A stretch of 64,000 bases of DNA, taken from positions 6,139,661-6,203,660 of the forward strand of contig CP099851.1 in the NCBI GenBank assembly GCA_030062745.1, in the 5' to 3' direction. This DNA comes from Capitulum mitella. Lineage: Eukaryota; Arthropoda; Thecostraca; Pollicipedomorpha; Pollicipedidae. The position numbers and the translations under genes are program-made. The number at the start of each line of letters is the position of its first letter. Position 1 is the stretch's first letter. This document shows positions 1 through 64,000 of this stretch, one piece after another. The notes below the pieces were generated by a model. That model searched no databases and had not been told where the DNA came from. It saw nothing but the letters and a program-made list of their open reading frames with translations.

Positions 1-155
1 TGAGCAAACTGACATGTCAAAGAGCACAGACGACAACGTTCAAAACGTTTTCGCCAGGAACAAGCACAAAGGGGTCCGAACCTAGTTAACGGATGGCAAT
101 ATCTTCGGCTGTGACGCGCGTGACCAGTGGCGTCACGGGTCACTGCTGACGTCAC

Positions 156-333
156 CTGATGAGGTAGTCCGTTTGCCACTGGGCCCTCTGACGCCGGCGT
201 CTCCGCACACCCAGACGAGCACGTCGATCAGCTCTTCACCGCACAGGTGGCGGCCGGCAATGTTTTGAGTCGGACTGGCGTGGCGACATACTGCAGCCAG
301 CAACAGAAGTGTTAACAGCCATGAGCCAGTCAT
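156..333 (-). CDS. Insulin gene 1 (RHL type), exon 1 only, cut by window edge
   Basis: First coding exon of a secreted insulin-like precursor. The ATG is at 331-333 on the minus strand, directly after a CTTTTACAG-like tract (here GTTTACAG). The 178-bp exon encodes a hydrophobic signal peptide (about residues 1-20, with a run of Leu), then the B chain with motif RHLCGEEL, Cys at residues 31 and 43, and the C-G-x-x-L-x-x-x-L-x-x-x-C spacing of insulin B chains, ending at a Gly-Lys-Arg processing site. The donor GTGACG follows at 155-150, splitting a codon after its first base (phase 1), as in genes 4 and 5. Exon 2 (C-peptide plus A chain) should lie about 1.2 kb further left, outside the window. 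It retains the B-chain Trp that is a stop in gene 4. Being the outermost gene of the left half, its mirror partner is predicted right of position 64,000. Family assignment is firm; intactness of the whole gene is unknown. Confidence 0.85.
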
Positions 334-398
334 CTGTAAACGGAGCGAAGATCATCTTCAAAAACACTGTCAGACTTGGGATATGGCTCTGCTCCTGT

Positions 399-405
399 CT
401 TTATA
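399..405 (-). promoter_or_regulatory. TATA box candidate of insulin gene 1
   Basis: TATAAAG on the minus strand, about 66 bases upstream of the gene 1 ATG. Genes 4 and 5 have TATAAAGG at a similar distance (78-85 bases), so the placement is supported by three paralogues. The region beyond it (about 410-600) is pyrimidine-rich on the plus strand (CCCTCTCTC runs). Confidence 0.45.
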
Positions 406-811
406 TTTTTTCATCCCCGTTTCTCCATATTTCTCCCCTGCTATCTTATCTTTCCCTTATCCCTCTCTTGATATTATTTTTCTCTTTCTTTACTTCCCTT
501 CCCTCCCCATCTCTCTCCCTCCCTCTCTCCCCTCCCTATTTCTCGTTCCCTCTTTCTTTCTGCTCTAGGTTCTTTGGCTTATCTCGCTCTTTATTTCTCA
601 AAAGCTCCCTTCCGCATCCATGTGAAGATGACCTCGGAACGAAAACTAATGACAGCTCTAGTGTACCGGATATTTTTCAGTATAAGATATGTATATTCGG
701 TTTCAGTATAATATATGTATATTAATATATATATAACACCGGATATATCCAGTATAATGCATTCAGTATATATATGCATATATGTATATACATATAACTA
801 TCAATGTGCCA

Positions 812-1070
812 AACGTGTTTTTAGTAGGATCTTTGAATGCATATTTCATACAAACTGACATATTGCAAAGCAAATCTTGACCAAGTCACAAGATATTTGA
901 CCTTGACGTTTGAGTACTCTGACCTTCACTCACCCTGGTGTATGCAAGCGTTTCAGTGTGCGCACACGTGTTTTTATTAAGGTCTCTGAATGCATGTTTC
1001 ATACAAACCGACATGTCGCAAAGCAAATCTGGATCAGGTCACAAGCTGTTTGACCTTGACCTTTGATGAA
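812..1070 (+). repeat. Two-copy ~156-bp direct repeat of a dispersed element rich in TGACCTTGAC motifs
   Basis: The block starting CGTGTTTTTAGTAGGATC near 812 recurs as CGTGTTTTTATTAAGGTC near 968. Both copies continue through GAATGCAT, TTTCATACAAAC and GCAAAGCAAATCT to TTTGACCTTGAC. Part of the same family appears reversed at about 48,280-48,410. It therefore looks like a dispersed repeat with a local tandem duplication, not a regulatory array of insulin genes. Confidence 0.6.
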
Positions 1071-60876: not shown

Positions 60877-60930
60877 TTCACACACACACACACACACACA
60901 CACACACACACACACACAAACACGCACGCA
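60877..60930. repeat. (CA)n microsatellite
   Basis: Uninterrupted CA run then CACGCACGCACAC; mirror of 9,671-9,753. Confidence 0.95.
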
Positions 60931-62598
60931 CACTTTACATCCACAGAGTACTACTAGGCATACGTACTTTGCATACTATCACAGATTCAACAATCTTCTC
61001 CCACCTACCCTGCTGCTGTAGCTAGTGCCAGTTTATTAAATGCAGCTTGTATCTTCAGGCAATGCTAGACATAGAAGTATTTTGACCAGTATCATGTCAT
61101 GTCTCTGCGGTAAAACGTCCTACTTTACAACTCTGTTTTTGATGCTCCTGAACAGCATTGGCAATCATGTCATAATATGATACTGAAAGTTACAATACTA
61201 CACATACCAATGAAATCTAAATCATACACTCATTGTATCATTTTGGGTGGTCGCATCAAATGGGTTTAGCTAAAAAAACATCTAAAACAATATAGCAGCC
61301 TAAACAACACCACTAAACACCTGAGCCCTATTAATTAGGCCAATGATGCAATTATTCTTGCAGTGAACTGGTGTGGTAAGTGCACCGACACCATGGGATC
61401 AGTGCCAAAAAAGATGATAACACTCCATTAAAACAACACAAAATCTCCAGTCTAACCTGTCACTTTCCAATATCCATGTCGCTGAATTAAAGTTTCATTT
61501 ATGCCGCACAACTTAACGTGGCCTGAATACCGCACAACTGAACAAAATCACCACTGACACCCGCGGAGACGTTACCTGCCACGTGCAGTTCACTGAAATA
61601 TATATGAGGGTGGCCAATAATGGTTAAAACTTGTCACACTCCATCCAAGAACATGCAACACGCGCTTTTTGCTTTGAGATTCGGAAGGACACGGGAGGGC
61701 TGTGTCACAGTGAACTGTGTGGTTCACAGTGAACACACAGTTACTGTGGCAATGTCGTCCCCTGGTTTGACGTGGCCTGTGACATCATCAGTCAGGTGAC
61801 CAGAGCTAACATAGCATTTTCCGAATCGCAAGACTCGGCGCTATCGATTGGTGGTAGGCCGGTTGAGATCCGACGGTTAGATCCCGAGAAATCCGCAGGC
61901 GGCTGCGGGTACGAAACCATGCCAGGCGGTGCCGGGTTAAAGCCATATATTTCAAAACAGACGAAAATTAATCATCGAGTCTTTCATAGTCGGTCTGCTA
62001 TGCCCAGTACTGAAAAGGGAGAAAGTAGAAATCTTCGCTGTGCACATGCAACCGAACTTTTGTTTGAGCGTCAGGTTTTGGTCATGTCTGTTTTGGTAAT
62101 CGTTTCTCAGTCTTTTTCCTAAAGTTTGGTCAAAAATTGGAGCAAAACATTCGAAGGGCTAGGTACACTGTAGGCCATTCATTTATTGTAACTTGGGTTT
62201 CACGTCCAACAGAACACGAAGTAAGGCAGACCGATGAAGATAACGGACAATGGTAGCGGCGAAGTCACATTACAGCTGAAAAATGCATCACAGTCTGACA
62301 GTTCTTTCATCGATCTGCATTTCGTAATGTCGGAGTGTTCCACGAACATCCACAGCCATATTCCACCAACGGGCAGCTGAGTTACAGATGGCTTAACGCA
62401 GATGAACACATTACAAGAACATTTCAGCTTTGACGTCGATGATAACTGACGACATTCAAAGAGCTCGAGAGGTAGAAGGCTACATTGGCCTTCATCCATT
62501 TTGCACATCATTTATCTCCAGAGTGCTGGAGTGTCTAGGGGTGCTGGTCAATGCTGGTCAACTGCTGAAGACATGGACGGTCGGGATGCCATCTGAGG
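60931..62598. other. 3' flank of insulin gene 7 and arm-conserved DNA
   Basis: Complement of 8,008-9,660, with candidate polyadenylation signal AATAAA at 62,182-62,187 (minus). No other gene seen. Confidence 0.6.
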
Positions 62599-63467
62599 CT
62601 AGTTACAATAGCTGAGCAGCGTGGCCATATCACAGGGGTTGTAGCAGCACTCCTCGACGATGCCCGTCTGACGTTTCGCTCTCACTCCCGGTGAGAACAG
62701 CAACTGCTGAGATAGCAGCCGTCCATGCTGGGAGTGAGGAGTGAACACCGACTGCAGGAGGTTCTGTCGCCGGAGTACGGAGCTCATTCCTGGAGCCGTC
62801 CAGGGCAGCAGGTCGCCCGACTTGAGCCGCCAGCTATCACTCAGGGGTGACGCTGTTAGGACACACAAGCAGAAGAATTGGTTGCTGATTCCAAACTTTG
62901 AGTGCTAGATGTCCACCGTAACACTCCACTGAGCCATAACGGAAGCGGCACTGATATCACCTTCCACGGTATCATTGCACAAACGTGCCTCTTATTAACA
63001 CTTTCAGAACTACATAAATCATTTACAAACTTACGATAGCTCGTGTCTGTTCTAACTGGAAGTTTTGGTAGAACATGTAGGACACATTCTTTACATCCTT
63101 CCAGTTATGGTCCTTTGACCCGGCAGTGTGTTGAAGAGCTCGATAGAAACAGGATCTTTGGTCACTGATGCGAAACACACATGGCGGATCAGGTTCTCCG
63201 GGTATGTATAACCGTGGGCCATGCAATATCAATAAAGTCACGGTACACGGAACACTGGATATTACCTGGTGCAGCCCGTTTGCCACTGGGTTCGTAGATA
63301 CCAGCTTCACCACATAGCCACTCCAGCGTGTCGGCCAGCTGCTTCCCACACAGGTAAAAGCCACCTCGCTTCTGGACGGAAGAACTGACGGTGTCATGAC
63401 CCAGGAGCACGTGGCAGAAGACGGAGGCGAGCAGCAGGGTCACCGACAGCAAACGGAGACACGACAT
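62599..63467 (-). CDS. Insulin gene 7 (GFY type), complete
   Basis: Secreted insulin precursor of 151 residues on the minus strand. Exons are 63266-63467 and 62599-62852, with a 413-bp phase-1 intron. Signal peptide, propeptide ending Lys-Arg, and full-length B chain (Cys40, Cys52, G-E-A-G-I-Y-E-P) identical to gene 2, closed by Gly-Lys-Arg. The C-peptide has Arg-Arg and Arg-Ala-Lys-Arg. The A chain has four cysteines, starts Gln-Thr-Gly-Ile-Val and ends Cys-Asn like gene 2. Differences from gene 2 lie in the signal peptide (S-C-L for T-F-L, Leu for Ile) and the C-peptide, where it carries R-L-K-S-G-D-L as gene 6 does. The start follows the leader intron acceptor (TTTTGTCTCCAG) directly. Mirror partner of gene 2; faces gene 6 tail to tail across 17.5 kb. 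Confidence 0.93.
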
Positions 63468-63684
63468 CTGGAGACAAAATGGAAAATATCAGCGTGGGTC
63501 GGAAAGTTAGACTTCCAGGTCAGAAAATAATTATGGTGCACATAAGACAAAGGACTGTTTTGGATAGCATGTTCTTTCGTTCAACTTGCTAATGTTTCAA
63601 AAAATAAAACAGCCCACAATGTTTGGCCGAGGTAATCGAACACTTCAAAGAGACACCATTTTCATGTGTGTCTCTCGTGCTCAC

Positions 63685-63810
63685 CTGCGGTCACTCTCGT
63701 GATCTCGGTGGTCAGATGCCCACACTGATTCCTTGTGCAGACCAGAAGTGACAGTGCGGCCGCCTCAGGCGCTCTTTATGCCTGGAAGATACCCCGGTAA
63801 GCGCACGCGC
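63685..63810 (-). promoter_or_regulatory. Core promoter and leader exon of insulin gene 7
   Basis: On the minus strand: NRF1-like GCGCGTGCGC (63,801-63,810), TATA ATAAAGAG (63,772-63,779), leader exon ending at 63,685 and donor GTGAGC. The leader intron is 63,468-63,684 (217 bp). Upstream homology to gene 2 stops near 63,955. Confidence 0.65.
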
Positions 63811-64000
63811 CTTCGAAAACGGCCCTGCCCACCAGCGCTGAGCAAGAGATCACGTGGTATCGTCATGCCGCCGGGTCCTATGGTCGGTGCTGTGTGGCGG
63901 GGACGGCACGAGGCATGAGTAATGAGCACAGCCTCGGTCAGGATAAAACGGCCCTTTACTTACATGACGTCAGTTGAGGACGACTGTGAGGTCATCGTGT

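Follow-up and report, generated by a model that had tools for sequence, protein, structure and literature searches.

A 64,000-nt stretch of contig C13 of the barnacle Capitulum mitella (C13:6139661-6203660, without N; here called the window), taken from an assembly of 477 Mb in 16 contigs, forms the left end of an array of insulin-type genes and includes a 57-kb palindrome. The genes belong to two kinds, named RHL and GFY after the residues that precede the first B-chain cysteine. We consider it quite probable that the array arose from a divergent RHL/GFY pair duplicated time and again, in inverted as well as direct orientation, with gene death and probably some gene conversion along the way and with GFY kept as a hormone gene. 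The region examined around the array comprises 274 kb of the contig, the DNA to the right of the window included, and coordinates are in window numbering unless a contig is named. For this species, published genome reports give 16 chromosomes and assemblies of 463-512 Mb (PMC8416341, PMC11331182).

Reading of the window in six frames revealed seven insulin-type genes, in the order RHL1 (minus strand), GFY2 (plus), GFY3 (minus), RHL4 (plus), RHL5 (minus), GFY6 (plus) and GFY7 (minus). The initial annotation, made from the sequence of this stretch, had given the same order and strands, with which the exon searches also agree, and had counted seven insulin genes; all seven are present, but not all of them can be working genes, as only five are readable and RHL1 and RHL4 carry in-frame stops. 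Exon 1 encodes the signal peptide (judged by eye) and the B chain, with an AG acceptor immediately 5' of the ATG, and exon 2 encodes the C peptide and the A chain. In all seven readable genes of the array the predicted intron lies in the C peptide in phase 1, with its GT donor after the first base of the codon. A signal peptide, a C peptide flanked by dibasic sites and the six-cysteine pattern of the B and A chains were found in GFY2, 3, 6, 7, 8 and 15 and in RHL5. All ten exons scanned against Pfam matched PF00049 at E < 0.05; the six A-chain exons scored above its curated cut-off of 23 bits (33.5-36.6), as did one of the four B-chain exons (23.5 bits), the other three reaching 15.3-20.0. The 20 matches listed from a genome-wide search with PF00049 were all above the cut-off.

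Comparison of the window with itself by self-BLAST gave a single collinear series of inverted matches, running from 6,623/63,954 to 32,023/34,529 around a spacer of 2.5 kb. Eight collinear segments of this series account for 18,835 of the 25,401 left-arm bases. Over 6,600-32,000, inverted matches take up 74.4% at a mean identity of 91.8%, as against 21.7% at 80.6% for direct matches. Scattered repeats are frequent in both orientations, as seen in two control comparisons, of 184-220 kb with 220-254 kb (22% inverted, 17% direct) and of the window with 64-130 kb (33% inverted, 35% direct, at 76-77% identity), and it is therefore the long collinear series that stands out. Blastn (E up to 1e-10) found no match to the spacer in the remainder of the 274 kb. 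When GFY2, 3, 6 and 7 are aligned, 155 of the 162 informative sites favour the pairing of mirror partners, 5 that of genes within one half and 2 the third possible pairing; RHL4 and RHL5 are sisters with high support in two trees, and GFY3 and GFY6 in one of two. The collinear series and the 155 sites bear out the earlier statement that the two halves are mirror images. The additional statement, that each half is itself inverted, is correct for the gene order but finds little counterpart in the DNA, where inverted matches take up 15% of the left quarter and 12% of the right quarter, at 82% identity; the term 'nested' thus fits the gene order more than the DNA, because the copies within a half match only around the genes. 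These comparisons support an inverted duplication as the event that would have built the palindrome. Divergence is uneven along its arms: aligned segments show 3.6-5.8% substituted sites over 15.2-32.0 kb and 9.0-11.3% further out, and identity by segment, with gaps excluded, is 88.7-96.4%, below the >99% of a near-identical ampliconic palindrome.

On its right side the palindrome stops just inside the window. The homology of the arms ends at about 63,950, some 50 bp short of the window edge, and the DNA beyond this point, interrupted at 64,101-65,317 by a miniature inverted-repeat transposable element (MITE), resembles the arm at 15.96-16.27 kb at 76-78% identity; the palindrome therefore ends at a rearrangement junction. 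The initial annotation had extrapolated the symmetry to an eighth gene, of the RHL kind and on the plus strand, shortly past the right edge, and had named its absence there as a refutation. This absence is what was found: there is no RHL exon at 63.5-82 kb (blastn, E up to 0.001), and neither a whole-genome DNA search with RHL exon 2 (20 matches, 18 on C13 and 2 on C7) nor a whole-genome protein search with RHL exon 1 (27 matches) gave a match at the predicted site. The extrapolated gene is absent from this assembly. When the DNA to the right was searched with all four exon types, the first genes past the window were GFY8 on the minus strand at 83.1 kb and RHL9 on the plus strand at 87.7 kb. 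A single gap (80,210-80,709) lies ahead of GFY8, and the preceding 16 kb beyond the junction are gap-free. Removal of an eighth gene by MITE-MITE recombination was considered and dropped, as the junction lies some 150 bp before the MITE and both flanks of this MITE resemble the arm at 15.96-16.27 kb.

The whole array comprises 18 genes, nine GFY and nine RHL, over 250 kb of C13. Grouped by their order, these genes form ten pair units, eight of which keep both partners; all eight are divergent, and they occur in both orientations, which supports the suggestion of a divergent RHL/GFY pair as the repeating unit. Seven of the 18 genes are readable (GFY2, 3, 6, 7, 8, 15 and RHL5) and 11 are disrupted (RHL1, 4, 9, 10, 13, 14, 16 and 18; GFY11, 12 and 17), so that six of nine GFY genes are readable as against one of nine RHL genes (Fisher two-sided p 0.0498). 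GFY17 was counted as disrupted by judgement: its exons are open, but it lacks AG at both acceptor positions, and the end of the usual A chain is missing. Six different lesions account for the eight broken RHL genes, since RHL9, 14 and 16 have in common an exon 1 shortened by 8 bases. The array also contains a direct repeat of 18-20 kb (80710-100475 and 161089-179666) whose copies are about 99% alike, with pieces of 5.0, 6.2 and 7.3 kb at 99.8, 98.9 and 99.5%. Each copy adjoins a 500-N gap at one end, and only the first contains a MITE, at 85,713-86,931; the repeat is either a very recent duplication or an assembly problem. The proposal that such an architecture can drive copy-number change and gene conversion is thus upheld for copy number, by the 18 genes and the repeat of about 99%, whereas for conversion there are some signs but not proof.

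Synonymous changes are present in 14 GFY pairs, whose ratio of nonsynonymous to synonymous divergence (dN/dS) is 0.43-0.72 and thus below 1 in every pair. GFY exons are more alike than intron and flanks in the alignment of GFY2, 3, 6 and 7, with one near-tie in GFY3/GFY6 (exon 2 2.0%, 3' flank 1.9%). Gene conversion is suggested by identical runs of 238 and 236 bp over the GFY3/GFY6 exons, where about 129 bp would be expected, by another of 201 bp outside the exons at 26,239 (expected about 103 bp), and by the position of three of the five same-half sites within 12 bp of exon 2. Between RHL5 and the GFY genes, synonymous divergence (dS) falls from 1.9-3.2 in exon 1 to 0.47-0.62 in exon 2; the two exons contrast less strongly between GFY and an insulin gene on contig C15 (0.82-1.08 and 0.55-0.76). 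RHL5 and GFY2 are most alike in the C-terminal half of the C peptide (27/32 residues, as against 16/29 in the B chain and 16/23 in the A chain). This segment is bounded by an inner basic site (RR; QR in GFY2) and by KR, and it is not the most alike part in comparisons with the C15 gene or with an insulin gene on C5; it might be a conversion tract or a separate peptide. A separate history of exon 2 relative to exon 1, which the dS contrast supports, was not established by trees and approximately unbiased (AU) tests.

In the proposed course of events, a head-to-head pair of RHL and GFY paralogues would have been the unit of a fast-changing insulin-gene array, of which the window is the left end, and these units would have multiplied via inverted and direct segmental duplication. 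One inverted duplication may have given rise to the 57-kb palindrome with its 2.5-kb spacer, in which divergence is smaller in the inner part than at the outer end, probably as a result of arm-to-arm gene conversion. New copies would then decay, the RHL genes being mostly broken and the GFY genes mostly readable. The readable genes are predicted to encode secreted prepro-insulins, presumably hormones acting on the insulin receptors of the animal itself, and the array would in that case set the dose or the diversity of the hormone. In a bolder version, put forward tentatively, at least 18 insulin genes derived from a divergent two-paralogue pair form an unstable array in this crustacean, the palindrome arms exchange sequence, exon 2 (C peptide and A chain) has moved between the families of the two paralogues, and of these one is disappearing while the other persists. 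We would sooner bet against this version than for it.

Several observations weigh against these interpretations. The trees give no resolution for GFY2 and GFY7, and one of them places GFY12 with GFY3 and GFY6. An excess of synonymous changes is significant (one-sided 0.05) in two of the seven GFY pairs tested (p 0.015-0.154). Exons are conserved by selection as well, which makes identical runs over them weak evidence for conversion. The dS values for exon 1 are saturated, support in the protein trees of the two exons is weak, and a shared history of the exon 1 and exon 2 proteins was not rejected by AU tests (p 0.117 and 0.115). The palindrome itself might be an artefact of assembly, in which two diverged haplotypes were joined in opposite orientation and the real genes number about half as many. 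In a draft assembly of Balanus improvisus, 66 genes are reported to be split as two alleles, with a median difference of 5.3% and a range of 2-11% (PMC8270832), and the 3.6-11.3% between the arms falls into this range; the 500-N gaps at 80.2 and 179.7 kb also show that the assembler had trouble nearby. Yet the window and the palindrome centre are gap-free, the spacer is unmatched in the rest of the 274 kb, the arms vary threefold in divergence along their length, one segment is in direct orientation and one MITE is present in a single arm. Moreover, the array continues past the palindrome with the same divergent pairs, and opposed insulin gene pairs are found on two other chromosomes. A fold-back read chimera would be expected to yield near-identical arms and to do so without such a spacer. 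We therefore regard an artefact of this kind as unlikely.

Somewhat less improbable, though still clearly disfavoured, is that the array is mostly a relic, in which the readable GFY genes drift as well and the working insulin is the single gene on C5. The 11 disrupted genes, the presence of a conservative insulin on C5, the moderate dN/dS and the small number of significant pairs all fit a relic. It is harder to reconcile with the six of nine GFY genes that retain their frame, splice sites and six cysteines, with a dN/dS below 1 in each of the 14 pairs and, apart from the near-tie, with the smaller difference of GFY exons than of intron and flanks. The initial annotation had linked the amplification to the recruitment of insulins into cone-snail venom, which would mean an amplification for prey capture. 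Several insulin genes do lie close together here, and cone snails are known to use insulins in venom. This link has to be rejected, and we assign it next to no probability, since the genome is that of an arthropod. The R&R cuticle domain (Chitin_bind_4) is a mark of arthropods; a search of the whole genome gave 627 candidates for it, and every one of the 150 that were scored was a match. In addition, NSELINSLLGLPKIMNDA on C6 equals the PDH peptide of B. amphitrite in 17 of 18 residues, and two weaker matches of the same search both lie on C14; the query was the barnacle sequence printed in PMC3462748, with flanking basic residues assumed.

Hormone genes are usually present in few copies. If the array described here is real and expressed, it would be a further arthropod case, after the silkmoth, of clustered multiplication of insulin ligands, with the difference that introns are present and that readable and broken copies stand side by side. 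A single species would then offer a test of variation in the copy number of insulin ligands, and conversion between the arms could be measured in its palindrome. The closest published kind is the bombyxin cluster of the silkmoth Bombyx mori, with which the genes described here share the A-chain end LLSYC. There are 25 bombyxin genes on chromosome 11, in pairs, triplets and singles, mostly intronless and some of them presumed pseudogenes (PMC3745042). Both systems thus have many clustered insulin paralogues on one chromosome, with pairs and pseudogenes (here 18 on C13, 11 of them disrupted). Unlike most bombyxin genes, the readable barnacle genes have a predicted phase-1 intron within the C-peptide sequence and an acceptor that immediately precedes the ATG. 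Bombyxins are least alike in the C peptide (PMC3745042), whereas RHL5 and GFY2 resemble each other most in the C-terminal half of theirs. The available text on bombyxin mentions no palindrome (PMC3745042), in contrast to the 57-kb palindrome found here.

Other known systems are more distant. In some arthropods, genes for aIGF, gonadulin and relaxin adjoin each other, as insulin-type genes multiplied by local duplication do here, but these are three different ancient hormones in few copies (PMC7357564) and not one recent many-copy family. A table of a barnacle transcriptome study lists one insulin-related peptide, with a Bombyx mori protein as its best match (PMC3462748); it is of insulin type, as are the genes here, but it is a single table entry and not an array. 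The venom insulins of cone snails are likewise encoded by several genes per animal, but in another phylum, and nothing here ties the genes to venom. Large inverted arms around a short unique spacer are also found in the ampliconic palindromes of the primate Y chromosome; those are near-identical, whereas the arms here are 3.6-11.3% diverged. The word 'insulin' is absent from the main text of the barnacle genome papers searched, and the literature searched, a partial coverage with few subscription papers, contained no recognisable report of a barnacle insulin array.

Relatives of these genes were found elsewhere in the genome. C15 has an opposed pair of insulin genes in convergent orientation (7.845-7.860 Mb), and C7 a divergent pair (26.322-26.327 Mb) in which exon 1 of one partner survives only as a relic; inverted pairing thus occurs repeatedly in this genome. 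The gene on C5 (23.2265-23.2279 Mb) encodes a conservative insulin with the B chain LYLCGSQLVEVLSMVCG and an A chain with GIVQQCC, and is perhaps the ordinary insulin of the animal. There is one further gene on C2, and exon 1 matches were found on C4 and at C13:11.9 Mb.

Table 1. Coordinates of the palindrome, of the insulin-type genes and of the mobile element in the window.
Feature	Position	Strand	Remarks
Palindrome, left arm	6623..32023		from self-BLAST
Palindrome, central spacer (2.5 kb)	32024..34528		gap-free
Palindrome, right arm	34529..63954		left-arm homology stops at ~63,955, at the rearrangement junction
RHL1 coding exon 1 (signal, B chain)	156..333	-	disrupted gene
RHL1 exon 2	~C13:6138102-6138354	-	1.3 kb left of the window; in-frame stop
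GFY2 coding exon 1	7134..7335	+	AG acceptor directly before ATG; phase-1 GT donor
GFY2 coding exon 2 (C peptide, A chain, stop)	7754..8007	+	readable
GFY3 coding exon 2	23392..23645	-	readable
GFY3 coding exon 1	24082..24277	-	
RHL4 coding exon 1	28036..28213	+	in-frame stop in B chain at 28156-28158; disrupted gene
RHL4 exon 2	29424..29680	+	open
RHL5 coding exon 2	36900..37156	-	sole readable RHL gene among nine
RHL5 coding exon 1	38370..38547	-	
GFY6 coding exon 1	44161..44356	+	no differences from GFY3 exon 1
GFY6 coding exon 2	44793..45046	+	readable
GFY7 coding exon 2	62599..62852	-	readable
GFY7 coding exon 1	63266..63467	-	
MITE (1.2 kb), TTAA and CCCTATTCCCGG inverted ends	20746..21957		left arm; no counterpart at the mirror position of the right arm

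General scans of the window with Rfam models and for tRNA genes gave no matches, and a protein search with the reading frame spanning GFY3 exon 2 found no homologue. No paper was found by a text search on four peptide motifs, and a search for COX1 over the 16 contigs gave no match. Amphioxus had come into question through a resemblance in the A chain; a genome search for the GFP family, which is numerous in amphioxus, likewise gave no match, a weak test in which the control also remained without a match. The R&R cuticle-domain matches form clusters on C9 (23.43-23.58 Mb), C10 (20.95-21.07 and 28.58-28.75 Mb) and C13 (17.71-17.86 Mb), which are probably large gene arrays, because many of the matches score equally.

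Within the arms, some irregularities were observed. The stretch 12,114-13,653 matches 58,892-60,354 in direct orientation inside the otherwise inverted arms, perhaps because one arm underwent a local inversion, perhaps because the two stretches are independent copies of a repeat numerous in the array. The 1.2-kb element of the left arm belongs to what we take to be a family of non-autonomous piggyBac-type MITEs, which is dense in the array: further copies lie at 64,101-65,317 and at about 17 other places in the 274 kb. The copies are 81-97% alike, and in 10 of the 15 inspected both ends are perfect. At 41157-41885, in a stretch of the right arm without a left-arm match in the collinear series, 248-bp units that are about 95% alike are repeated in tandem. 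Self-complementary simple repeats occur in the arms at 11456-11630, 50064-50278, 55536-55617 and 60403-60506; the first of these reads as IYIY runs, from which these repeats were judged to be TA-rich.

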